DNA of 64,000 nt from Planctomycetota bacterium (GTDB lineage Bacteria > Planctomycetota > Planctomycetia > Gemmatales > Gemmataceae): contig JACPPF010000118.1 of NCBI GenBank assembly GCA_016191165.1, positions 1 through 64,000 on the forward strand, read 5' to 3'. Position numbers and translations under genes: made by a program. Below the pieces are notes generated by a model, which searched no databases, was not told the origin of the DNA, and saw only the letters and a list, made by a program, of their open reading frames with translations. Below are positions 29,859 to 58,266 of the stretch, one piece after another. Within the stretch, counting starts at the first letter, position 1, and every line of letters begins with the position of its first letter.

Positions 29859-31274
29859 TCAATAAAGCCCCGTCACCACGCCGCCGTGCTCGACGAGCCG
29901 GCGCGGGCGTTGCAGGCGGTCGCGGTATTCGGTTCCCGAGTCGATGCCCAGCGCGTGATACAGCGTGGAAAGGAGGTCATAAGGATGAACCGGGTTGCGT
30001 TCAGGATAGGCGCCGTGGCGATCGGAGGCGCCGTAGACGCGTCCGCCGGGGATGCCGCCGCCGGCCAGCAAGCACGTGTAGCACGCCGGCCAGTGGTCGC
30101 GCCCGCCGGGGCCGACGTTGTTGGTCGTCGGCGCGCCAATGCGCGGGCTGCGGCCAAACTCACCGACGGCGACCACGAGCGTCGTTTCCAGCAAACCGCG
30201 CGTGGCCAGATCCTCGAGCAGCGCGGACAGCGAGCGATCGAAGACCGGGCAGCGCCAGTCGCGCAGCATCGGGAAGTTGTTGCGATGCGTGTCCCATGAA
30301 CCATCAGGCCCGGCGACCGGTTCGGTGTCGGAACCCGATGGCCAGTTGACTTGCACGAATCGGCTGCCGCGTTCGATCAGCCGGCGCGCCAGCAGGCAGC
30401 TTTGCCCGAACTTGGTAAGCCCGTATTGCTCGCGCACGGTCGACGATTCGCCCGCGAGGCGAAACGCGTTTGCGGCGCGGGCCGACTCGATCAGTGAATA
30501 CGCCCGGCCATAGTAGCCATCGAAATCAGCAGGCCCGAGACGCGAAGTGGGCGCGAGCCGGCCACGCAGATCGATCCGCGCCTGCAATCGGCCCAGCGTG
30601 ACGTCGGCAGGCAGCGACAGGCTTTGGAGCGGCAGTTCGCGTGTCGGGTCGTCGTACATCGGGAAGGGATCGTACGCACCGCCGAGGATGCCCGCCCCCT
30701 GCCCCACCCCGGCGACCGACCCTTCACGTACCGGCCCGCACAGCGCGATATAGCCCAGCGCGCCGCGCTCCACGGGGCGGAACCGCGCCACCAGCGAACC
30801 GGCCGATGGCAGATCCTCGCGCGACGGCGGAACTGAAAGGCCCGTCGGCGTGAAGTTGCTCGGATCATACCCTGTCATCAGCATGTAAATCGCCGCGCCG
30901 TGATTGGTCAACCCGCGCGGCTTCACCCCCAGCGAGCGAATCAGCGTGAAGCGATGCGCTTGCCGCGAAAGGCGGGGCAACACCTCGCTCAGCAGCATTC
31001 CCGGCACCGTAGTCGCAATGGGCGAAAACTCGCCACGATATTCCGCCGGCGCATCCGGTTTCGGATCCCACGTGTCGATATGGCTCGGCGAGCCTTGCAG
31101 GTACAAGAAGATCAGCGACTGCGCCCGCCCAAACCCGGTCCCGCGATTGGCGGACGTTTGGGCCCGTGCCTCGTGGCGCAACATTTCCGGCAAGGAAAGA
31201 CCCAGCAGCGATACGCCGCCCACCGTGAGGAGTTCCCTGCGTGTGAGGCCGGCGCTGGTTTGGACGGATAACAT
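29859..31274 (-). CDS. DUF1501 protein with Tat signal
   Basis: A 471-aa protein. The N-terminus SAGLTRRELLTVGGVSLLGL is a twin-arginine signal. The body has the DUF1501 pattern related to sulfatases/alkaline phosphatases: SLIFLYLQGSPSHIDTWDPKP, VAVGEFGRSPRIG, GGRDHWPACYTCLLAGGGI and GASDRHGAYPERNPVHPYD. These proteins are abundant in planctomycetes, often near cytochrome-like DUF1549/DUF1553 genes. The start at 31274 with AAGGA upstream was preferred over 31361, which would add 29 residues lacking any signal feature and overlap the next gene. Confidence 0.92.
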   Translation of the reverse strand: MLSVQTSAGLTRRELLTVGGVSLLGLSLPEMLRHEARAQTSANRGTGFGRAQSLIFLYLQGSPSHIDTWDPKPDAPAEYRGEFSPIATTVPGMLLSEVLPRLSRQAHRFTLIRSLGVKPRGLTNHGAAIYMLMTGYDPSNFTPTGLSVPPSREDLPSAGSLVARFRPVERGALGYIALCGPVREGSVAGVGQGAGILGGAYDPFPMYDDPTRELPLQSLSLPADVTLGRLQARIDLRGRLAPTSRLGPADFDGYYGRAYSLIESARAANAFRLAGESSTVREQYGLTKFGQSCLLARRLIERGSRFVQVNWPSGSDTEPVAGPDGSWDTHRNNFPMLRDWRCPVFDRSLSALLEDLATRGLLETTLVVAVGEFGRSPRIGAPTTNNVGPGGRDHWPACYTCLLAGGGIPGGRVYGASDRHGAYPERNPVHPYDLLSTLYHALGIDSGTEYRDRLQRPRRLVEHGGVVTGLY

Positions 31275-31357
31275 GTGGTTTTCCTTCTTGGCCGCTTGCA
31301 ACTTGGCGTTCGCGCGGCGCCGCGCGAACGCTAAAAGGCAAGCGGCTAATCGCATTT

Positions 31358-32566
31358 TCAACCCGGATTGGCGACGCGGCCTACAAACAGGATGCTACCC
31401 GTGCGATAATCCTGAATCACGAACAAGAACGGACGGTCCGCGTGAAACGTCGCTCGCGGCGGCAGCGAACGGGTCCCGACCTCGATGGCCGTGGACGCCG
31501 CCGCTTCGGTGCCCGCCTCGTTGACATCCACGAACGCCTTGTGGAGCACGGCGGTAATATAGAGCTTCTCGCGCGTCGCCATGCCGCTAAAGTCGGCTTT
31601 GCCAAAGATGAACGCGTCCTTCATGCCCATTTCCTTGAGCACGTCGTTCAATTTGAATTCGGCCGTCACCTTGAATTTCGGCAATTTCAGATCGACGATG
31701 TGGGTCGAAAGTTTCTTCGTCCAGGCGTTCAAGTTCGCAGCAGTGAGCTTCTTTTCCACGTCGGCGAGCCCGTCCTTTTTCTTGGGCAGCAGGACGAGCA
31801 TCGACTGCTGGTAACCCACGTAGGGGATTTGCACCATCGAGAACGTGCCGAGGTCCGCGTAACGGCCCCGGTTGTTCGAATGCATCATCGGAACCTTCGC
31901 TGACTTGCCATCGGCCAGGGAAAAGCTGCCGGGCTTGGTTTGCGACGGTTCGAAGGGATTCACCCACGCGGCCTTGAAGTAGATGGCGTTGGTGAGAACG
32001 AGCCGGGTCATGTTGTCGAGCACACCCTTGGGGATCAGGTCCTTGATCTTGTCCTTGGTTTTCTGTTCGACCCAGCCATTGATTTTGAGCCGGGCGGCCT
32101 CGGGGGCGCCGGCGTAATCGACCTCTTCGAGGCCGGCGCCGTAATGGTCGCTGCCAACCTTTGTGAATGCTGGCAAGAACCCGTAGTCCTTCTGACCCCA
32201 CAGACGATTGGCGACGGTGAGCTGGAAGGGCCGCTTCTTGCCCTCGCCGTCCAGCGCGCCGATCAACTTGGCGAAAGCCGGGTGCAGGCGGTCCTCGCCC
32301 AGGTTGAACCGCAGCGTGGTCTTCATCTCGTCGGCTGTGTTTCCCTTTGCACCGGCGTAACACATGCCAAACGCATTGGAGATGCTGTAAGGCGAGAGGA
32401 AGAGATTGCCGTCTTTTTGGGCGAGGCGCTGGTAGAGCGTCAGGCCGAAGTCGGTGTTGCCATCGACCAGCGTTTTGACGTCGGGGTCGATTTTTTGGGC
32501 ATGGCCGGGCGTGACCATCGCGAGACTCAACCAGGCGGTGAAAGCGCCAATGAGCAGGATTCGCAT
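31358..32566 (-). CDS. secreted serpin (1 of 3), predicted P1 Arg
   Basis: A 402-aa serine protease inhibitor. A signal peptide ends at GHA-QK. The serpin core is complete: NTDFGLTLYQRL, LFLSPYSISNAFGMCYAGAKG, TRLVLTNAIYFKAAW, and the C-terminal HADRPFLFVIQDYRTGSILFVGRV. The reactive loop hinge is GTEAAASTA, the form needed for loop insertion and inhibition. Counting 15 residues from the hinge Gly by the antitrypsin scheme places Arg at P1 and Ser at P1', which suggests trypsin-like targets. AAGGAG is 7 nt before the ATG at 32566. It is the last of three tandem paralogs. Confidence 0.93.
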   Translation of the reverse strand: MRILLIGAFTAWLSLAMVTPGHAQKIDPDVKTLVDGNTDFGLTLYQRLAQKDGNLFLSPYSISNAFGMCYAGAKGNTADEMKTTLRFNLGEDRLHPAFAKLIGALDGEGKKRPFQLTVANRLWGQKDYGFLPAFTKVGSDHYGAGLEEVDYAGAPEAARLKINGWVEQKTKDKIKDLIPKGVLDNMTRLVLTNAIYFKAAWVNPFEPSQTKPGSFSLADGKSAKVPMMHSNNRGRYADLGTFSMVQIPYVGYQQSMLVLLPKKKDGLADVEKKLTAANLNAWTKKLSTHIVDLKLPKFKVTAEFKLNDVLKEMGMKDAFIFGKADFSGMATREKLYITAVLHKAFVDVNEAGTEAAASTAIEVGTRSLPPRATFHADRPFLFVIQDYRTGSILFVGRVANPG

Positions 32567-32626
32567 TTTCAACTCCTTGTATGGGCGCCGCTCGATGCGT
32601 GGCGCCGTGGGACGTGGACGACCAGT

Positions 32627-33838
32627 TTATGACGCCGGATTGGTGACGCGCCCGGCGAACAGGATCGAACCCGAGCGGTGATCGCGAATGAGGAAGAAGA
32701 ACGGCCGATCGGCATGAAACGTCGCTGTTTGGGGACGCCCCAGGAGGTTGAAGACAATCCCGGTGGCCGCCACGGCCTCTGTGCCGTTCTCGTTGACCTC
32801 GACGAACGCCTTATGAAGGGCGGCCGAAATAAACAGATTCTGGTTTGAAGCCATCCCGCTGAAGTTGGCTTTTCTCGGGGCGAACGCGTCGCTCATGCCC
32901 ATTTGCTTGAGCGCCTTGTCGAGTTGGAACTCGTCAGTGACTTTGAATCTCGGGATCTTCAAATCGACCTCAAAATCGTCCAGTTTTTTCAGCCACGCCG
33001 CCAGGTTTTGCGCGCTCAGTTGCCCCTCCAGGTCCGCCAGGCCATCCGCTTTCTTGGGTAGCAAGATAAACATCGATTGTTGAAAGCCCTCATAGGGAAT
33101 TTGCACCATCGAGAATGAATCGAAGGACGCCAGCCTTGTAAGGTGTTTGCTGTGCATCATCGGGGTTTGGATGATCTTGCCACGGGCCAGCTTGAATGGC
33201 CCGGCCTTGGTGTTTCCGGCGTTGAACGGCGCCAGCCAGGCAGCTTTGAAGTAGATGGCGTTGGTCAACACCAGGCGGGTCTGGACCGAAACGGCCCCGC
33301 CCGGGAGGAGCTTCTTGATCTTGTTCTTGGTTTGCTTCTCGACCCATTTGTTGATGGTCTGGCGGGCGTTTTCGGTTCCTTTGACGAAATCGACTTCCTC
33401 GAGGCCCGCCTTGTAATGGTCTTGCCCGATCTTGAGAAAGCCCGGCAGGAAGCCGTGGTCCTTCTGACCCCACAACCGATTGGCGATGGCAAGCTGGAAG
33501 GGCCGTTTCTTGCCGTCGTCGGCAAAGTGCCGCACCAGCTTGCCGAACGCAGAATGAAGCTGTTCGGCGCCGAGGTTGAAACGCAACGTGGTTTTCATCT
33601 GCTCGGCGGTGTTGCCTTTGGCGCCGGCGTAACACATGCTGAAGGCGTTGGAGATCGAATAGGGCGAGAAAAATAGATTCCCCTCTCTGGCAGCGAGGCG
33701 CTGGTAAAGCGCCAGGCCAAAGTCGGTGTTGCCGTCGACGAGGGTCTTGACATCGGGGTCGATTTTCTGGGCCCGCGCAGGGGCGCAACTGGCCACCGCG
33801 ACGACGAGGACCGACAGCAAGGCGATGGTGTTGCGCAT
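32627..33838 (-). CDS. secreted serpin (2 of 3), predicted P1 Leu
   Basis: A 403-aa serpin paralog with a signal peptide (LSVLVVAVASCAPARA-QK) and the full fold: LFFSPYSISNAFSMCYAGAKG, TRLVLTNAIYFKAAW and HADRPFFFLIRDHRSGSILFAGRV. The hinge reads GTEAVAATG. The predicted scissile bond is Leu-Gly, so chymotrypsin-, subtilisin- or elastase-like targets fit better than trypsin. AAGGAG precedes the start. It lies 60 bp before the first serpin and 41 bp after the third on the same strand, consistent with an operon. Confidence 0.93.
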   Translation of the reverse strand: MRNTIALLSVLVVAVASCAPARAQKIDPDVKTLVDGNTDFGLALYQRLAAREGNLFFSPYSISNAFSMCYAGAKGNTAEQMKTTLRFNLGAEQLHSAFGKLVRHFADDGKKRPFQLAIANRLWGQKDHGFLPGFLKIGQDHYKAGLEEVDFVKGTENARQTINKWVEKQTKNKIKKLLPGGAVSVQTRLVLTNAIYFKAAWLAPFNAGNTKAGPFKLARGKIIQTPMMHSKHLTRLASFDSFSMVQIPYEGFQQSMFILLPKKADGLADLEGQLSAQNLAAWLKKLDDFEVDLKIPRFKVTDEFQLDKALKQMGMSDAFAPRKANFSGMASNQNLFISAALHKAFVEVNENGTEAVAATGIVFNLLGRPQTATFHADRPFFFLIRDHRSGSILFAGRVTNPAS

Positions 33839-33879
33839 GGGATGACTCCTTGCACGTTGCGACTCGTTTTTCGTCGATG

Positions 33880-35106
33880 CTACGAGCCCGGGTTGACAAC
33901 ACGGCCACTGAAGAGGATGGTGCCCGTGCGTTGATCGCGAATCAGGAACAGGAACGGATGATCCACGTGAAACGTCGCCGGCGGCGGCTGTCTTGGCCTG
34001 GACTTGAATTTCGTGACAACCACCGCGGTCGCGGCTGCCGCCTCCGTGGACTTCTCGTCGACTCCGATGAACGCCTTGTGAACGACATTGGAGATATACA
34101 GGTTGCCGTCCTTGCCACTCGCCATACCCTTGAAGTTGGCGTTGACTCGATCGAACGCATCCCTCATGCCCATCTCTTTTAATTGGGCGTTAAGCTGGAA
34201 TTCCGTGGTCAGCGTGAACTTCGGCAACTTCAGATCGACGCTATGAATGGCGAGAGCCGTTGTCCAATTCTGCAAGGCGGCGGGCGCGAGTTTCTTTTCG
34301 ACCTCGGCCAGGCCATCCTTTTTCTTTGGGAGGATCACGAGCATCGACGCCTCGTGCCTCTCATACGGCATTTCCAGGATCGAAAAATCCCCGAGGTCGG
34401 CAAAAGAGAGTTTCGGGCGGGAACGCATCATGGGCGGCTCGATCTTTTTGCCGTCGAGCAGGAAGAAGGGCTCGGGCCTGGTCAGTTTGGCGTTGAAAGG
34501 AATGTGCCAGGCTGCCTTGAAGTAAATGGCGTTGGTCAGGACGAGACGCGTATCCGTGTTGATCGCACCCCTCTTGAGGAGGTCTTTGATTTTTTCCTTG
34601 GTTTGTTTCTCGACCCAGGAGTTGATCCGCCCACGGACAACCTCGTTGGCACGGATGAAATCGACTTCCTCCAGTCCCGCGCGATAACGGTCGTTGCCGG
34701 TCTTGAGGAACTCGGGATAGAACCCGTAGTTTTTTTGCCCCCACAAGCGATTGGCGATGGTGAGCTGAAATGGCCTGGGCTTGCCGTTGCCATCCAGCTG
34801 GGCGATCAGTTTGCTGAAGACTGGGTGAAGCCGATCATCGCCCAGATTGAATCGCAAGGTCGTTTTCATCTCCTCGGCCGTGCGGTTTTTGGCGCCGGCG
34901 TAGGTCATGGCGAGTGCATTGGAGATGCTATACGGCGAGAAAAAAACATTGCCGCCGTCGGCCGCCAGACGCTTATGGAGTGTCAAGGCGAAATCGGTGT
35001 TGCCTTGGACCAGGCTTTCGATTTCGGGGTCGAGTTTCTGGGCATGCGCCAGCGGCACGGCAGTCCAGGCCGCAAGCAACAGGAGAGTGAAAATGGCAGC
35101 ACGCAT
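33880..35106 (-). CDS. secreted serpin (3 of 3), longer divergent reactive loop
   Basis: A 408-aa serpin paralog, first in the transcribed order. It has a signal peptide (ends LAHA-QK) and the core motifs VFFSPYSISNALAMTYAGAKN, TRLVLTNAIYFKAAW and HVDHPFLFLIRDQRTGTILF. The hinge has Ser for the usual Gly (STEAAAATA). The loop is four residues longer than in the other two and is Lys/Arg/Pro-rich (TKFKSRPRQPPP), so P1 could be Phe or a nearby Lys. Inhibition remains likely because the small-residue hinge is kept. Confidence 0.92.
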   Translation of the reverse strand: MRAAIFTLLLLAAWTAVPLAHAQKLDPEIESLVQGNTDFALTLHKRLAADGGNVFFSPYSISNALAMTYAGAKNRTAEEMKTTLRFNLGDDRLHPVFSKLIAQLDGNGKPRPFQLTIANRLWGQKNYGFYPEFLKTGNDRYRAGLEEVDFIRANEVVRGRINSWVEKQTKEKIKDLLKRGAINTDTRLVLTNAIYFKAAWHIPFNAKLTRPEPFFLLDGKKIEPPMMRSRPKLSFADLGDFSILEMPYERHEASMLVILPKKKDGLAEVEKKLAPAALQNWTTALAIHSVDLKLPKFTLTTEFQLNAQLKEMGMRDAFDRVNANFKGMASGKDGNLYISNVVHKAFIGVDEKSTEAAAATAVVVTKFKSRPRQPPPATFHVDHPFLFLIRDQRTGTILFSGRVVNPGS

Positions 35107-35135: not shown

Positions 35136-38100
35136 TCAGGGGCCCACACTAAAGACGCGGTTGATACGACTTTGGTTTCCCTGGCGATCCCTCACCGTTA
35201 CGATTAGCCGGCCGCGTTGCAGCCTGGCCAGCGGTTCTGCCAACGGCAGCTCCCAGACGCCCTGCGATTTCACGCGGAATTTGGACGCCAGGTTGGTGCC
35301 TGCGGGAACGCCGGCCAGCGTGAAATCGGCGGTGACCTCGAACGACTTCAGATCGAGACCGCTGTAAGTGTCGTGCATGCCGATCAGGATGCGGGTAACC
35401 TTCTCGTTTTTCCCAGGCTCGGGATACGTCAGCGTCAAGGTTGGCCGTTGATCGTCGCCGTGCCAGCCGAAGCCCGCGGGTGAGCGTAGCGAACCTGCGG
35501 GATCCAGATCAATGGGACAACCCAGGTCGATCCAGCGGATGATCGTGCGGCGATCCTCTTCCGAAAGCGCCTTGACCTTGCCCGCCTTGACCGCGGCCGG
35601 CGGCGGCATGATGCTGCCTTCGTAGTCGATGTCCACCACGTTGTCGCGAATCCAGTAACGCAGCTTTTGTTCGTCGTCGTAGTTGACCCCCTTGATCCGT
35701 TTGCCGCCCTGATGCAGGGACTTCGGGTCGTTGCGAATCGCCAGGCTCGGGAAGTCGTCATTCGATCGGCTGTCCATGCGCTTGCCAAACAGCTTCCACA
35801 CCAGCAGGCTGCGCCGTGACTGGAAGCGCACGACATATCGGCTCACCGAATCGGGCGGCCAACCCACCTCGCGCGGCTTGTAACGCTCGCCGCCGACGGC
35901 CAGCCGAAAATACGTCATCGGCACGCGCACGTCCGGCCCGGCGTCGTGCCCGAAGGCGGGGAGCGTCTTCTTCATGTCGTCGTCATCGAGGACGAGGCCA
36001 CCAGCGGGCTTGCGTCCGCCGTTCGCCGTGTGACAGGCGACGCAGCTCCGCTCGAAAATCGGGCGGATGTCGCGGAAGTACTCGACGTTGAGCAAGGCCC
36101 CCCTCACCCCCAACCCCTTTCCCGCAAGGGGCGAGGGGCGCAAGTAGCGCAGGCCCGTCTCGTTTTTCACGTCCCACTGGCGTTTCGATTGATCGTTCGC
36201 CCTGGTGGTGATGAGCGGGGTATGCGTCGTAAGATCGAAAATCTTGTAGTCCTTGCGGGCGGCCATCGTTTTCTCGAACGGCGTTGGCTGTTGCGAATGA
36301 GCATGGCAGCCGCCGCAGTCGTTGCGAATTTCGCCCGGGCGAAGTTGATGCCAGGTCTGGGCGAAATTGAGGACCATGCCGTGCTTGTCGATGGTCTGGA
36401 AGGTGAACGACTGGTTCGCGGGAATCTTCGCCAGGAAGCTGGTGTCGGGATTGCCGTCGGGGTCGAGGGGTTGGGTTATGCCCACCCCCCGCTCACGCGG
36501 AAGGCTCGCATTGAAATGGCGCACGGGAATTTCGCCGAGGATGCGCAGGCGTTCCATGGCGTGGTTGCCGTAGAGGGGAGCGCCGCCGTTGCCCTTGATG
36601 TCGGTGCGCGGTTCCTGGGCGACGATGCGAATGGCGTGGATGTCGCTGTTGTCATAGATTCCGGCGTCGGCGCCCTGCATCGACCAGTTCATGCGCATGC
36701 GTTTGGGATCGCGTGGCACCGCCGTCACGCTGCCCTTGGGAACATAGCCCTCGGGCGCACTTTCGCGTTTGTACATGCTGGACGTGCCGACCAGGCCATA
36801 GGGCGTGCCTTCGGGCAGGTGCGGCGAGCGCTTGCCGTCATTCTTGTGCACGAGAGTTTTCGGTTCGTCGATGCCATAGATGCGCTTGTAGGGCACGAGC
36901 GGCCGAGGCCATTGCTCGTTGTACTTTGGATCGTTCTTGATGAGGAGCATCTGGCCGGGTTCGTCGATGGGCTGCCCGTTTTTGATGAGATAGATGCCGG
37001 CGTCGATGAACGGGTAGTAGTTGTACTGGTGATTGGCCGGCCCGGGGGTCCAGACGGTGAGCAGGTGATTATCTGGAGCGCCGCAGGGATGCGTGACCTT
37101 GCCTAGCGCGTGGGGATAACTCTTGCCGCCGTGCTGTTTGGATTTGACCTGCTCACCTGGGGTCGACGAGGGGGCGGGGCCGTCCTCGCCGTAGGCGAAC
37201 TTCGTCAGCACCTGGATGCCGGTCGGCGTGAAAGGCATCTGGAAGGTGTGCCCGCCGTAGCGTTGTCCCTTGTTGCGCGGGTCGCGCAAATCGCCTGGCC
37301 CGAATGCGGGAACGCCAACCGGCGGTCGCAGAGGCAGCTTGAGGAAGGTGCCGAACCCGCTGTTGTTGAGGTTGTAATATTGCTCGACGACGATGCTTTT
37401 ATCAGAAAGCTGCGACTGGAAGTGAAACGCCGGCGGCGCTCCGCCGGTCCAGTACGCGCTCACCACCGGCTCCCAGTTCGTGCCATCGGGATGAATGCTC
37501 CAGATGCCCCACAGGATGCTGTTGTGCGTGCCGTGCGATTCGAGCGTCGAATAGCAAATGCGGCCATCGGTCAGGATCACCGGGTGCAAGGCACACGCGA
37601 TATTAAGGTAGCCAATTTGGTCCACATTTCTCTCCCTCTCCCCTGGTGGGAGAGGGTTGGGGTGAGGGGGATCGTCCATCACGAAAAGTTGCAGCGTGAT
37701 GCGAGGATAGCCGCGCGGCGGGGCGTAGGCGTTGCGGTTCGACGTGAACACGACCTTGCCGCCCGGAGCGGGACAAGGGCCGAGATTGAAGACGCCGTAG
37801 CGCAGCGACGTCTTGCCCTTCTCCGGCGTGCGAAAGTCCTTCGACCACGGCGCGGCCCCGAGGTTCGGCGTGAAGGTTTGATCCGTGAGACGAACGGTCT
37901 TTTTCGATTGCACGTGGACCTTGTAAATGTCCGAACCGGAGTGCTTGGCGTCGATGAACTTGGCATAGTAGACCCATTTGGCGTCGAAGGAGACGTAAGG
38001 GTCCATGACGCTGCCGTCCTTGCCGCTGACGAGAAGCTCCTCGCTGCCATCGGGGTGTAGGAGCAGCAGGTCGGCGCCAGGCTCCATGCGCGTGGGGTCG

Positions 38101-38309
38101 GAGAACTCGGCCCACTTGGTGCGTTTCACATCACCGTGGCGCGGCGTCCGCACGTAGACGATATCGTAATCGTATTTGACGGTCTTGTCGGTCGAAACGT
38201 GCGGCGGGTTGACGTTGAGCTTTTTCGGCGGCGCCTTCTTGTTTTGTCCCAATGCGGGGGAGAACGCGGCAAATAGGAATAGAAACGCAAAGATAAGCTG
38301 ACGTTGCAT
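35136..38309 (-). CDS. large secreted PD40/cytochrome-like protein, HzsA-related
   Basis: A 1057-aa protein with a signal peptide (LIFAFLFLFAAFSPALG). The N-terminal part has TolB/PD40-like propeller motifs (ADLLLLHPDGSEELLVSG, GGKVVFTSNRNAY). The family assignment, as seen in many planctomycetes, is hydrazine synthase alpha-subunit related. Two CxxCH heme-binding motifs are visible, CGGCH at 665-669 and CVACH at 756-760, so c-type heme is plausible. Three palindromic elements are translated in frame (peptides PHPNPLPPGERE, SPLAGKGLGVRGAL and AGSLRSPAG). True hydrazine synthesis is not implied. The selenoprotein candidate lies 70 bp upstream on the same strand. Confidence 0.85.
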   Translation of the reverse strand: MQRQLIFAFLFLFAAFSPALGQNKKAPPKKLNVNPPHVSTDKTVKYDYDIVYVRTPRHGDVKRTKWAEFSDPTRMEPGADLLLLHPDGSEELLVSGKDGSVMDPYVSFDAKWVYYAKFIDAKHSGSDIYKVHVQSKKTVRLTDQTFTPNLGAAPWSKDFRTPEKGKTSLRYGVFNLGPCPAPGGKVVFTSNRNAYAPPRGYPRITLQLFVMDDPPHPNPLPPGERERNVDQIGYLNIACALHPVILTDGRICYSTLESHGTHNSILWGIWSIHPDGTNWEPVVSAYWTGGAPPAFHFQSQLSDKSIVVEQYYNLNNSGFGTFLKLPLRPPVGVPAFGPGDLRDPRNKGQRYGGHTFQMPFTPTGIQVLTKFAYGEDGPAPSSTPGEQVKSKQHGGKSYPHALGKVTHPCGAPDNHLLTVWTPGPANHQYNYYPFIDAGIYLIKNGQPIDEPGQMLLIKNDPKYNEQWPRPLVPYKRIYGIDEPKTLVHKNDGKRSPHLPEGTPYGLVGTSSMYKRESAPEGYVPKGSVTAVPRDPKRMRMNWSMQGADAGIYDNSDIHAIRIVAQEPRTDIKGNGGAPLYGNHAMERLRILGEIPVRHFNASLPRERGVGITQPLDPDGNPDTSFLAKIPANQSFTFQTIDKHGMVLNFAQTWHQLRPGEIRNDCGGCHAHSQQPTPFEKTMAARKDYKIFDLTTHTPLITTRANDQSKRQWDVKNETGLRYLRPSPLAGKGLGVRGALLNVEYFRDIRPIFERSCVACHTANGGRKPAGGLVLDDDDMKKTLPAFGHDAGPDVRVPMTYFRLAVGGERYKPREVGWPPDSVSRYVVRFQSRRSLLVWKLFGKRMDSRSNDDFPSLAIRNDPKSLHQGGKRIKGVNYDDEQKLRYWIRDNVVDIDYEGSIMPPPAAVKAGKVKALSEEDRRTIIRWIDLGCPIDLDPAGSLRSPAGFGWHGDDQRPTLTLTYPEPGKNEKVTRILIGMHDTYSGLDLKSFEVTADFTLAGVPAGTNLASKFRVKSQGVWELPLAEPLARLQRGRLIVTVRDRQGNQSRINRVFSVGP
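35473..35501. repeat. in-frame palindrome of the gagcgcagcga family inside the HzsA-related gene
   Basis: The sequence cccgcgggtgagcgtagcga with cctgcggg closing the palindrome lies within the coding region and is translated as part of PAGSLRSPAG. It matches the intergenic family found at gene ends elsewhere in the window. Confidence 0.7.
36096..36141. repeat. in-frame ccctcaccccc-type element inside the HzsA-related gene
   Basis: It contains ccctcacccccaacccctt and tcccgcaaggggcgagggg, and encodes SPLAGKGLGVRGAL in frame on the minus strand. It lies between the two CxxCH motifs. Confidence 0.8.
37630..37672. repeat. in-frame ctctcccctggtgggagag element inside the HzsA-related gene
   Basis: A palindrome (arms ctctccc / gggagag) with the ggttggggtgaggggg tail. 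It is translated as PHPNPLPPGERE between propeller-like strands (LQLFVMDD before, YLNIACALHP after). Confidence 0.8.
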
Positions 38310-38768: not shown

Positions 38769-38821
38769 AAGTAGGTCAGGCTTTCCAGCCTGACCGTCAG
38801 GCTGGAAAGCCTGACCTACTT
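38769..38821. repeat. perfect 25-bp inverted repeat
   Basis: Arms 38769-38793 (aagtaggtcaggctttccag...) and 38797-38821 are exact complements with a 3-nt loop. The site is upstream of the selenoprotein candidate and downstream of the cupin gene, and could be the cupin terminator. The gtaggtcaggctttccagcc unit looks like a mobile palindromic repeat. Confidence 0.85.
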
Positions 38822-39838: not shown

Positions 39839-39894
39839 CCGCTTGCGCCTTAGCGCTCGCGTGGCGCCGCGCGAACGCGAAGCCGCAAGCGGCT

Positions 39895-53991: not shown

Positions 53992-55014
53992 TCATTGCTT
54001 ATCCGGGGCCTTCTGGAGTTTCCTCGTTTTCAACTTGGCCAGGAGCGGCCTCACCGCTTCGCTGGGGATGGCATAGCTCTCGGTGCGGCCGGCGCGGGCG
54101 ATGTTAATGCCGAGCACCTTGCCGTCGAGATTGACGAGCGGCCCGCCACAATCGTTGGGCCGGAGAACGGAATCGTGCTGCAGAATGACGGGAAAGCCCG
54201 CCCGGCGTTCGCTAAGCCTGGAGCCCATGTTGTTCTGGATTTCGCCTCGTGATTTGCCCCCCTTGGCGCCGGGGCTGGCGCCAAGGGTCACCTTGATTTC
54301 ACTTTCCTTGTCGGCGCGGCTGATCTTGAGAAGGATGTCGTCGCCGGGTTTTTTCCTGGAGAGCAAGCCGCGCAGCTCGTCGGTGTTTTGCACTTGTTCT
54401 CCGTCAAAGGTCAAGATTTGATCGCCGGCCTTGAGTCCGGCCTTTTGGGCGGGCGTGTTGGGAAAGACTTCCTCGATCCTGACGGCGGGGAAGGCCAAGT
54501 CGAAGGCGATGCCGAGGTAACCGCCGGGCCTGCCGCCTGGCGAGGCGAAGCGAGCGCCCTTGACGGTTCGTGCCGCCACGCTGACCACGCCGATGGCAAC
54601 TGGATTGGGCCCCGTTCCGGGCGATGCGACCCAGTGGCCGATCTTCGCCGCCTTGCTGTCCGTCCACACCACCGGCGTCAAACCCTTGACGGCAACCTTG
54701 AGCATCGCCAGGTCATGCGGCACGTCGAAGCCGACCAGTTCCGCATCGACCTCGACGCCGTCGGGCATCCGGCAGGTGATCCTGCCTCCCTTGAGTTCAC
54801 TGTGCTTGGAGAGTATCCAGCCATCCGCACTGACGATGGCTCCCAGGGCTGCGTCCTTGCCGGCAACGAGGACGCGCACCGTGCTCTGGCTCGGCTGTTC
54901 GACCACGCTCCGAAAGAGCCGCACAATCTCCGGGCTCTTCGTTTGCTGAGCGAGCGCTGGTCTGGGTGCAATCAGGAGGAGAAAGGAAAACGAAAGGAAC
55001 AAACCGCGTTTCAT
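53992..55014 (-). CDS. trypsin-fold protein with PDZ domain inside the core and Cys at the nucleophile position
   Basis: A 340-aa secreted protein with a signal peptide (LSFSFLLLIAPRPALA). The S1C-like core begins DGWILSKHSELKG (His71) and HDLAMLKVA (Asp101). A PDZ domain (about 164-245, GYLGIAFDLAFPAVRIEEVF) follows before the core resumes with SVLRPNDCGGPLVNLDGKVL (Cys289). The GDSGGP Ser is Cys here. The order core-PDZ-core differs from DegP, where PDZ follows the complete protease. It may be a cysteine-nucleophile protease or a non-catalytic chaperone. First of three PDZ genes in a row. Confidence 0.85.
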   Translation of the reverse strand: MKRGLFLSFSFLLLIAPRPALAQQTKSPEIVRLFRSVVEQPSQSTVRVLVAGKDAALGAIVSADGWILSKHSELKGGRITCRMPDGVEVDAELVGFDVPHDLAMLKVAVKGLTPVVWTDSKAAKIGHWVASPGTGPNPVAIGVVSVAARTVKGARFASPGGRPGGYLGIAFDLAFPAVRIEEVFPNTPAQKAGLKAGDQILTFDGEQVQNTDELRGLLSRKKPGDDILLKISRADKESEIKVTLGASPGAKGGKSRGEIQNNMGSRLSERRAGFPVILQHDSVLRPNDCGGPLVNLDGKVLGINIARAGRTESYAIPSEAVRPLLAKLKTRKLQKAPDKQ

Positions 55015-55076
55015 GGATCGACCTCATCAATTTAGCCGCGGAGCTTGCTCCGTGTGATTGGCGGCGTCTAAACGAA

Positions 55077-56108
55077 CTAAGAACGTTTACCGATCTTGAC
55101 CTTGAGCATCAGCGTTTCCTCGCCGCGGCGCACTTCGAGCGTAATCACGTCGCCGACCTTGCGGGACAGGACGAGTTTGGGGAGCATGGCGGCCGAGGCA
55201 ATCGCGTTGGCGTTGAGTTTGAGCACGACGTCGCGCGCTTTCAGCCCGGCCAGGTCGGCGGGCGATCCCGGGGTGACGCGCAGGATGACGCAGCCCTCTC
55301 CATTGGGATCGGTCTGTACGCCGAGATAGGGTCCGCTCTTGCCCAGCCCGCCGCCGCCGAGTTTGCCGCCCCACACCTCGCTCTTGGCGATCTTGGCCCA
55401 GTTGTCGCGAAACGGATTGACCGGCACGTGCATGTTGGCGGTGAGCGGATTGCCGATGCGGCTATTGATGCCGACGACTCGCCCGTGCATGTCGAAGAGC
55501 GGTCCGCCCGAATCGCCGCCGACGAGGATGCAATCGGTCGTGAGGGTGGTGGCGTTGGCCCGCAGCAGTCGGCCCAGGCGAACGGGAGGCGTGCGTCCCG
55601 GCTTGAAGCCGCCGGGGTGGGCGATAACCATGCACCAGTGTCCGTTTTTCATGGCGGCGGAGTCGCCCAGGTCGACGAAGGGCCATTCGCCAAGGGTGGT
55701 GATCTTGATCATGCCGCTGTCGATGCCGTGGTTCCCGCCGAGTGTCTTCCCCTTGGCGATCTTGCCGTTATGGAAATAGATGGTGACGGCCCGCCCCGGG
55801 GCGCCGGAGACATGGCCGGCCGTGAGGATGTAGCCGTCCTTGGAGACGATGACACCGCTGCCGGAACTGGAGCCGACGCGCACGGACACAACGGCGGGGC
55901 TGACGTTCTCGACCACAGTCGCGACGTGATCTTGAATCGCCTTCAGATCCTCAACGTTCTCGGGCGCGGCCTTGTCAAATACGGCCGGCAGCTTCGCGGC
56001 GGGCGCCTTGAAGGCCGGCGGCTGAAACTCCGGTTCCTGTCCAAAAACCGGCGCACCGGCCAGCAGCGTAAACGCCACCACCCAAACGAATGATTCACGG
56101 AATCTCAT
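55077..56108 (-). CDS. S1C serine protease with C-terminal PDZ domain (DegP/HtrA-like)
   Basis: A 343-aa secreted protease (signal peptide ends PVFG-QE). Catalytic motifs are complete: LTAGHVSG (His), NHGIDSGMIKI (Asp) and GGDSGGPLFD (Ser). The C-terminal PDZ is YLGVQTDPNGEGCVILRVTP ... GLKARDVVLKLN. An Asn-Val-Ser-Pro-Ala segment (VENVSPAVVSVRVG) matches HtrA. It likely degrades misfolded envelope proteins. The Met at 56108 gives a proper signal; 56171 is the longest open start. Confidence 0.93.
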   Translation of the reverse strand: MRFRESFVWVVAFTLLAGAPVFGQEPEFQPPAFKAPAAKLPAVFDKAAPENVEDLKAIQDHVATVVENVSPAVVSVRVGSSSGSGVIVSKDGYILTAGHVSGAPGRAVTIYFHNGKIAKGKTLGGNHGIDSGMIKITTLGEWPFVDLGDSAAMKNGHWCMVIAHPGGFKPGRTPPVRLGRLLRANATTLTTDCILVGGDSGGPLFDMHGRVVGINSRIGNPLTANMHVPVNPFRDNWAKIAKSEVWGGKLGGGGLGKSGPYLGVQTDPNGEGCVILRVTPGSPADLAGLKARDVVLKLNANAIASAAMLPKLVLSRKVGDVITLEVRRGEETLMLKVKIGKRS

Positions 56109-56228
56109 CGGTTTCGGGCTCCCAGGTCGATTTTCGCCACTGCGGCTCGGCGTTCGCGACGCGAATTGCAAACGCCAAGCCGGAAGCGGCGCAGATGGAA
56201 TTTACTTTCAAAGGTTTCCAGATCAATT

Positions 56229-56966
56229 CTAGTTCACGTCGTCGGGAATGGTCAAGTCTTTGATGGTTTCCTGTTTGCCTTGCCGGAGGACGATGACCTC
56301 GACCGACGCCCCCACCTTGAGTTCCTCAAGCGCCTTGCGAAAGGAGAAGATGTCGTTCGTTACTTTTTTCGGTCCGATTTGCAAAAGGATGTCGTACTCT
56401 TTCAAACCCGCCTTGGCGGCAGCGGAATTGGGGGTCACCCGGTTCAGGATCAATCCCACATCCTTGGCAAGGCCAAGCTGGGCGCGGAGGGCCGTGGCGG
56501 GCGGCGACGCGAAAACGCCGAGCCTTTGTTCCACGGGCATGCTGCTGTCGATGGCGCCGCGAACCTGAAAACGCCGCTCGACGTCGAAACGCATTTGCTG
56601 CAGCTTGAATTTCTTCGACTGAAGTTTGCCAAACTGCGAAAACGCCTTGCGATCGCCTGCCTTCTGGGCATCGCGTGCCTTTTGCAACTCCTCGGCGACG
56701 AGTTTCTCCTCCTCACGAATGGCGCGCAGCATCGCCTTGCGAATCTTGGCGATCTCGTCCTCTTGTTCTTTCAACTTCGCCGTCAATTCGGCAAACGGAA
56801 CGGGCTCGACCGCCTTCTTGGGTTGCACCTTGACGGCCGGCTTTTTCTCGGGCGGTTCCTTCTTGTCCGTCTTTTGAGCGAACGTTGATTGCGGCACAAG
56901 CAACAACATCCCCAGCGTCAGCGCGCCGCCAATCGCCCGAAAGATCCGTTTGATGGAGAGGTACAT
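56229..56966 (-). CDS. secreted PDZ-domain protein with coiled coil
   Basis: A 245-aa protein with a signal peptide (GALTLGMLLLVPQSTFA), a Lys/Pro-rich linker, a coiled coil (ELTAKLKEQEDEIAKIRKAM) and a C-terminal PDZ domain (AKDVGLILNRVTPNSAAAKAGL ... VIVLRQGKQETI). It has no protease core. It may bind substrate C-termini for the two protease-like neighbours. The frame is open to 57308, but 56966 is the first Met with a signal peptide. Confidence 0.85.
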   Translation of the reverse strand: MYLSIKRIFRAIGGALTLGMLLLVPQSTFAQKTDKKEPPEKKPAVKVQPKKAVEPVPFAELTAKLKEQEDEIAKIRKAMLRAIREEEKLVAEELQKARDAQKAGDRKAFSQFGKLQSKKFKLQQMRFDVERRFQVRGAIDSSMPVEQRLGVFASPPATALRAQLGLAKDVGLILNRVTPNSAAAKAGLKEYDILLQIGPKKVTNDIFSFRKALEELKVGASVEVIVLRQGKQETIKDLTIPDDVN

Positions 56967-57144
56967 GATCGATTGAACTCCTGCATGGGTTGAAGCGAAT
57001 GGGTTCGTGTCATTGTGCCCTATTTCCCGAACGGCGTCGATGACTTTTTTTGAAATTTGCCCAACTCGGTTGTTCCGACGCCCACGTTCCCGGCGAGCCG
57101 TATAATCGCAGAAACCGTTCCAGGCTTTCCCAAGGAATCCGACC

Positions 57145-58266
57145 ATGCATTCATTCCAACTCCCCTGGCAGGAGCCCATGCTTCGAGCATCGGCTGCGCT
57201 TTCCTTGTTCCTCTCGGCGTCGTCCGCATGCGCACAGGCTCCAAAGGAGATCGGCAAGATGACGCAGCAGCAGGCCTCCGCATTCGTCAAGCTCGCGATC
57301 AAGGGCATTCAACAAGAATACCCAAACAAGCCCGGGCACGTCCTGAACGGCGCCGCCGACGCCAAGACGCCGCGCGAATTGCATCCCGCGTTTTACGGCA
57401 GTTTCGACTGGCACTCCTCGGTACATGGCCACTGGATGCTCGTGCGTTTATTGCGCCGCTTTCCGGACTTGCCGGAGCGCATGGCAATTCGCGCCGCGCT
57501 CGGCAAACACCTGACGGCGAAGAACCTGAAGGCCGAAGCCGATTACTTCGACCAGCCCAATCGCAAATCGTTCGAGCGCACCTACGGCTGGGCCTGGGCG
57601 TTGAAGCTGGCGGAAGAACTGCACGGCTGGGACGACGTCGATGCGAAGAAATGGTCGCAAAACATGAAGCCGCTCGCCGACATTTTAGTAGCGCGCTACC
57701 TCGTGTTCTTGCCAAAGCAAACCTACCCGATCCGCACGGGCGTCCATCCCAACACCGCCTTCGGCCTGGCCTTCGCCTGGGACTATGCCAAGGCCGTCCA
57801 GCACACGCGCTTGCGTGAATTGATCGAGCGGCGCAGCCGCGCCTACTATGCGAAGGATTACGACGCCCCGGCGCGCTGGGAGCCGGACGGGAACGACTTC
57901 TTTTCGCCAAGCCTGATGGAAGCCGACCTGATGCGCCGCGTCCTGCCCGTGGCCGAGTATCGCGCCTGGCTCAAGCGTTACCTGCCGGGGATTGCGAAGG
58001 GGGAACCCGAGACGTTATTCAAGCCCGCAACCGTCAGCGACCGTACCGACCCGCAGATCGTCCACCTCGACGGCCTGAACCTGAGCCGAGCCTGGTGCAT
58101 GAACGGCATCGCGTCCGCCCTGGCCAAGGACGATCCACGGAAAAAGGGTCTGCGCGCATCGGCCGCGCGCCATGCGGCAGCCGCGCTCAAGCATGTCGCC
58201 AGCGGTGACTACGCGGGCGAGCACTGGCTGGCGTCGTTTGCGGTTTATTTGTTGACGAGCGAATAG
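57145..58266 (+). CDS. secreted DUF2891 protein
   Basis: A 373-aa protein with a signal peptide (MLRASAALSLFLSASSACA) after a short leader. DUF2891 motifs are present: IQQEYPNKPGHVL, ELHPAFYGSFDWHSSVHGHW, RTYGWAWALKLAEEL and TGVHPNTAFGLAFAWDYA. It is mostly helical, with conserved His and Trp residues, suggesting an alpha/alpha toroid enzyme, but no activity is established. AAGGA is 8 nt before the ATG at 57145. Confidence 0.88.
   Translation: MHSFQLPWQEPMLRASAALSLFLSASSACAQAPKEIGKMTQQQASAFVKLAIKGIQQEYPNKPGHVLNGAADAKTPRELHPAFYGSFDWHSSVHGHWMLVRLLRRFPDLPERMAIRAALGKHLTAKNLKAEADYFDQPNRKSFERTYGWAWALKLAEELHGWDDVDAKKWSQNMKPLADILVARYLVFLPKQTYPIRTGVHPNTAFGLAFAWDYAKAVQHTRLRELIERRSRAYYAKDYDAPARWEPDGNDFFSPSLMEADLMRRVLPVAEYRAWLKRYLPGIAKGEPETLFKPATVSDRTDPQIVHLDGLNLSRAWCMNGIASALAKDDPRKKGLRASAARHAAAALKHVASGDYAGEHWLASFAVYLLTSE

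Follow-up and report, generated by a model that had tools for sequence, protein, structure and literature searches.

Three serpin genes placed head to tail in a planctomycete raise the question of whether the three proteins hold different proteases in check or simply repeat one another. The function of bacterial serpins is largely unknown, and an earlier sequence-only reading of this DNA had proposed that the array controls several proteases through diversified reactive loops. We followed up this proposal in a window of 64,000 nucleotides, the whole stretch of DNA analyzed here, and in related genomes. The host genome comprises 7.23 Mb in 183 contigs and is 95% complete; it contains one further serpin, outside the array on contig C175.

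Gene content and protein features of the array

The three genes lie on the minus strand at positions 31358-35106 of the window, are transcribed in the order SerC, SerB, SerA, and are separated by gaps of 41 and 60 bases (Table 1). Both the open reading frames and whole-profile Pfam Serpin matches of 400.7-412.6 bits confirm that they are same-direction serpin paralogs: Each protein covers positions 2-370 of the 370 in PF00079, whose curated cut-off is 27 bits. A comparison with NCBIfam yielded no serpin equivalog. Since the proteins are 57-65% identical over about 378 core positions (outside the reactive loop, A/B 65%, A/C 61%, and B/C 57%), chance likeness is excluded. An AGGAG/AAGGA ribosome site precedes each start, and SerA most likely begins at the ATG at 32566 rather than at the TTG at 32572 of the mechanical open reading frame (31358-32572).

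Table 1. Features of the serpin array and its flanking genes, with positions in the window.
Feature	Position	Strand	Evidence
HZS_alpha-like gene, upstream and co-directional; 1057 aa, putatively exported, hydrazine-synthase-alpha-like middle domain	35136..38309	-	Pfam HZS_alpha 46 bits
SerC, first gene of the array; serpin with signal-peptide-like N-terminus, 408 aa	33880..35106	-	Pfam Serpin 400.7 bits
SerC reactive loop EKSTEAAAATAVVVTKFKSRPRQPPPAT (P17 onward)	33973..34056	-	hinge-anchored
SerB; serpin with signal-peptide-like N-terminus, 403 aa	32627..33838	-	Pfam Serpin 408.5 bits; ATG with AGGAG upstream
SerB reactive loop ENGTEAVAATGIVFNLLGRPQTAT	32720..32791	-	hinge-anchored
SerA; serpin with signal-peptide-like N-terminus, 402 aa	31358..32566	-	Pfam Serpin 412.6 bits; ATG with AGGAG upstream
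SerA reactive loop EAGTEAAASTAIEVGTRSLPPRAT; predicted P1 Arg codon 31469-31471	31448..31519	-	hinge-anchored
DUF1501 gene, downstream and co-directional	29859..31361	-	Pfam DUF1501 295 bits

The HZS_alpha-like gene ends 29 bases before SerC, and the two are possibly co-transcribed. A promoter scan returned sites no more frequently than in shuffled sequences. Two repeats were noted in this region: an inverted repeat with 20 bp arms (AGGTCAGGCTTTCCAGCCTGAC) at 38773-38818, upstream of the HZS_alpha-like gene, and a GC-rich palindrome CGTTCGCGCGGCGCCGCGCGAACG at 31300-31345, between SerA and the DUF1501 gene; near 39853 there is a repeat similar to this palindrome. DUF1501 genes are very abundant, with 145 matches in the host genome and 83-181 in its relatives.

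The N-termini of all three proteins resemble signal peptides when judged by eye, with a charged start, a hydrophobic run, and an AxA-Q site; in SerB there is, in addition, a weak VASC resembling a lipobox. The landmarks NxFxSPxSI, INxWV, NxxxFKxxW, LPKF, MGM, HKA, PF, GR, and NP are present in each protein. The claim that all core motifs are shared thus nearly holds: The exceptions are FKAAW in all three at the position of the usual serpin motif FKGxW, Ser for Gly at P15 of SerC, and Val at P11 of SerB. In the AlphaFold2 model of SerC (pLDDT 89.8), the hinge is modeled as a strand, and the best fold match in the PDB is 1hle, a cleaved leucocyte elastase inhibitor (rmsd 1.5, TM 0.94 by target). 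This resemblance to loop-cleaved serpins is compatible with loop insertion, but it is not evidence of inhibition, because structure predictors often return the inserted state.

The loops of the three paralogs do differ at the predicted scissile bond. Anchored on the hinge (a slash marks a candidate bond), the prediction is Arg-Ser for SerA (EAGTEAAASTAIEVGTR/SLPPRAT) and Leu-Gly for SerB (ENGTEAVAATGIVFNLL/GRPQTAT), while the Lys/Arg/Pro-rich loop of SerC (EKSTEAAAATAVVVTKF/K/SRPRQPPPAT) offers Phe or Lys as candidate P1. Counted from P17 up to the last residue ahead of the strand-1C Phe, the loops measure 24, 24, and 28 residues in SerA, SerB, and SerC, so that of SerC is 4 residues longer. 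Because SerC and its ortholog in a related genome, G001, have Lys-Ser in common one residue further on (TKFK/SRP and KTLK/SSR), Lys-Ser is no worse a candidate than Phe-Lys. The 17-residue register is supported by Ser or Ala at P1' in 114 of the 148 related serpins that we compared. The siropins were actually cut at P3-P2 and P6-P5 and not at the predicted bond, and our P1 predictions may therefore be wrong. As for the hinge, the inhibitory motif at P17-P9 is ExGTEAAAA (Spence et al. 2021), and each array protein departs from it by one change: EAGTEAAAS in SerA, ENGTEAVAA in SerB, and EKSTEAAAA in SerC. The missing Gly at P15 of SerC and the Val at P11 of SerB could weaken inhibition.

Occurrence and history of the array

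Serpins had been called rare in bacteria, which fails for this lineage: A serpin is encoded in 65 of the 95 genomes from the host family (Gemmataceae-like) and in 171 of 397 genomes sampled from the host class. A genome scan found more than 550 related loci; the named relatives among the sources comprise Gemmataceae and other Planctomycetota, from which we take the host to be Gemmataceae-like. Reviews of bacterial serpins name other phyla, and our literature search found no paper on planctomycete serpins. Head-to-tail pairs occur in six further family genomes and, among more remote planctomycetes, in L164, L165, and L167, and the array is the sole triple among the family genomes; these counts are minimum values because the draft genomes are fragmented. 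Most of the pairs are sisters on the tree and therefore reflect separate duplications; tandem serpin pairs arose several times in the lineage. The array is genuine, but as the expansion of a protein family common in this lineage it is fairly unremarkable.

The array was not formed by a recent local triplication, since SerA, SerB, and SerC as a single clade were rejected (p-AU 0.00045); SerA and SerB as sisters were neither supported nor rejected (p-AU 0.285). SerC is instead sister to the upstream serpin of G001 (bootstrap/SH-aLRT 100/99), and it therefore predates the split between G001 and the window's genome (G000). The gene order in G001 is an HZS-alpha-like gene, 80% identical to that in the window, then the SerC ortholog, then a SerA-like gene. 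In G002, a SerA ortholog is followed by a DUF1501 ortholog with 86% identity to the window's. At the conserved ANRLWGQ motif, this SerA ortholog (L047:1605-2909) carries an in-frame TGA, whether as a genuine break or as an error of the draft genome. The genus also contains orthologs of the flanking genes that have no serpins beside them, so the serpins come and go. We rejected the HZS-alpha-like neighbor as a functional partner: Other orthologs of 80% identity, in G004 and G005, sit without serpins, and the adjacency is not general. Gene conversion among the array copies was likewise rejected, as DNA identity is fairly even along the genes with no sharply homogenized block.

Proposed function and possible targets

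From these sequences, we consider it probable that the array encodes exported serpins of the inhibitory type that cover two or more specificities, a reading that commits to no single target. It is supported by the full-length Pfam matches, the near-intact hinge, the divergence of the loops, and the Arg-Ser bond that SerA shares with chloropin; secretion, inhibition, and the scissile bonds we infer alike. In this scheme, a Sec signal peptide would carry each serpin out of the cytoplasm, and the proteins would work as one-shot traps in the periplasm or the extracellular space. When a protease cuts the exposed loop, the small residues of the conserved hinge would allow insertion of the loop into sheet A, with the protease ending up covalently trapped and distorted. 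The spring would be the same in all three serpins and the bait different: Trypsin-like proteases would fit SerA (Arg-Ser), proteases of the chymotrypsin or subtilisin type would fit SerB (Leu-Gly), and an additional set, ambiguous in nature, would fit SerC (Phe-Lys or Lys-Ser).

The targets could be the many serine proteases that the cell itself encodes or proteases made by its neighbors. The host genome has 19 Trypsin_2 matches over the cut-off, 14 Trypsin matches that overlap with them, and 10 subtilase matches, and these proteins are possible endogenous targets. No protease gene lies beside the array; the nearest in the window are two HtrA-like genes 19-21 kb away. They belong to three adjacent HtrA/PDZ-type genes at 53992-57308 on the minus strand, of which two have trypsin-like domains (53992-56171) and one has PDZ only. 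Nor were protease partners seen beside the serpins in the loci of close relatives, and we found no target protease and no link to prey or a host. Conceivably, the serpins serve chiefly to fend off the proteases of predators, competitors, or hosts. The inferred export and the quick change of P1 among orthologs would fit such a role, as would the characterized bacterial serpins that hit foreign proteases, for example, miropin and the siropins. However, the window shows no host or prey association, the genome encodes dozens of serine proteases of its own, and Clotm-serpin 1 has been proposed to control its own bacterium's subtilisin; we regard a chiefly defensive role as possible but doubtful.

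Divergence of the loop and the core

Whether the loop evolves faster than the core, as the sequence-only reading would require, depends on the comparison. Across the 148 relatives it does: Loop identity is 0.32-0.60 for pairs with a core identity of 0.47-0.74 (0.60 at core 0.74 and 0.34 at core 0.52), while the hinge is 92-99% conserved. When sites are ranked by variability, P3, P2, and P1 reach the 88-90th percentile and P15-P8 stay under the 17th, and about 25 core sites equal or exceed the loop. At P1, Thr, Arg, Lys, and Ser are the commonest residues; the SerA-like orthologs show R, F, E, T, or A there and invariably have Ser at P1'. In the ortholog pairs formed by SerA and by SerC with their G001 counterparts, however, the loop is no faster than the core. 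The dN/dS ratio is 0.11-0.30 for the core and 0.17-0.70 for the loop, the latter from 15-19 loop codons with saturated dS, mostly near or above 1.

These values bear on the idea that the three genes are redundant, tandem duplication raising the dose and the loops drifting because there are many promiscuous targets instead of distinct ones. A loop dN/dS below 1 yet above that of the core is what relaxed constraint would give, many other surface positions vary equally, and siropins 1 and 2 inhibit the same two proteases although their loops are only 48% identical. Against drift, SerC and its G001 ortholog have retained the long loop and the Lys-Ser step across the species split, so this loop appears conserved rather than drifting. 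Loop identity in tandem pairs is also lower than the average for non-tandem pairs with a comparable core identity in 9 of 9 comparisons, each modestly (singly at only the 7th-64th percentile, and not all independent), and P1 differs within the tandem pairs in 8 of 9 comparisons. Redundancy therefore seems to us rather unlikely, and we favor exported inhibitors with differing baits. A lineage in which serpins are common, repeatedly tandem-duplicated, and variable at P1 offers a natural loop-swap series for identifying the targets of bacterial serpins.

Serpins linked to ECF sigma factors

More surprising than the array itself are serpins linked to sigma factors. The fourth host serpin (L045:4599-7076, on C175) lies behind an overlapping ECF sigma factor gene (L045:3964-4638, plus strand), and its protein is single-pass, with an N-terminal domain, a membrane segment, a FecR-like segment, and an outer, C-terminal serpin in that order. 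The same arrangement occurs in G005 (L051:4744-7736, where the FecR match, 19.4 bits, is under the profile's cut-off) and G093 (L119:2621-5625), and a similar one in G205 (L211:2517-5037). In three genomes of the host family, G029, G039, and G036 (L120:6010-9618, L070:4955-7159, and L082:4891-7098, respectively), sigma-70 regions 2 and 4, a membrane segment, and a C-terminal serpin are fused in one protein. Planctomycetes are known to have ECF sigma factors that carry WD40 domains, and ones with membrane-anchored C-terminal extensions are known elsewhere; our literature search found no report of a serpin extension on, or coupling to, an ECF sigma factor. A different fusion was seen in Sedimentisphaerales, where an open frame of 1488 aa (L169:2-4468) combines a C-terminal serpin with a region that, by visual inspection, resembles a PQQ-type beta-propeller.

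The FecR-serpin and its ECF sigma factor may form a protease-sensing anti-sigma system; the serpin spring would then perhaps be used as a sensor too, as these ECF-wired domains suggest. That at least one of the array proteins has lost inhibition and acts as a protease sensor or carrier, as the FecR- and sigma-linked domains may, is suggested by such domains in the host genome and its relatives and by the hinge changes in SerB and SerC, but it is improbable given that, the putative signal peptide aside, none of the three array proteins has an anchor in the membrane or a partner domain and that their hinges are still mostly inhibitory in type. The sequences show the domain architectures, and a link between the array and the FecR-serpin is conjecture: A single protease-response circuit, in which an outside protease would cleave the anchored serpin, the fold would spring and release the sigma factor, and SerA, SerB, and SerC would mop up the protease, strikes us as very improbable.

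Comparison with known systems

In vertebrates, clade A serpins form clusters of paralogs with divergent reactive loops, and the array had been likened to such animal clusters. The likeness stands as far as clustered paralogs with divergent loops are concerned; it does not extend to positive selection, which is unsupported here, with loop dN/dS below 1 and saturated dS.

Of solved proteins, the nearest to SerA is the bacterial chloropin from Chlorobium limicola (PDB 8GXV, E 3.3e-83), an inhibitor of thrombin and KLK7 whose hinge is the same and whose Arg-Ser bond sits in an identical register. Unlike the array, it is a single characterized protein, and the chloropin paper considers a role inside the cell in which DNA is a cofactor, whereas the array serpins look exported. 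Clostridium thermocellum also has three serpins in one bacterium, Clotm-serpins 1-3, at least one of which inhibits subtilisin; two of them are cellulosomal and one is membrane-bound, unlike those of the array. Siropins 1 and 2 of Eubacterium siraeum are bacterial paralogs whose loops likewise diverge beyond their overall identity of 60%, but their two shared targets are human proteases and no three-gene array has been described for them. The tandem pairs of other Planctomycetota (for example, G001:C184, G024:C549, G026:C965, G088:C264, L164, L165, and L167) are also head-to-tail paralogs with different loops; they differ in having two genes rather than three and, by the tree, mostly go back to duplications of their own.
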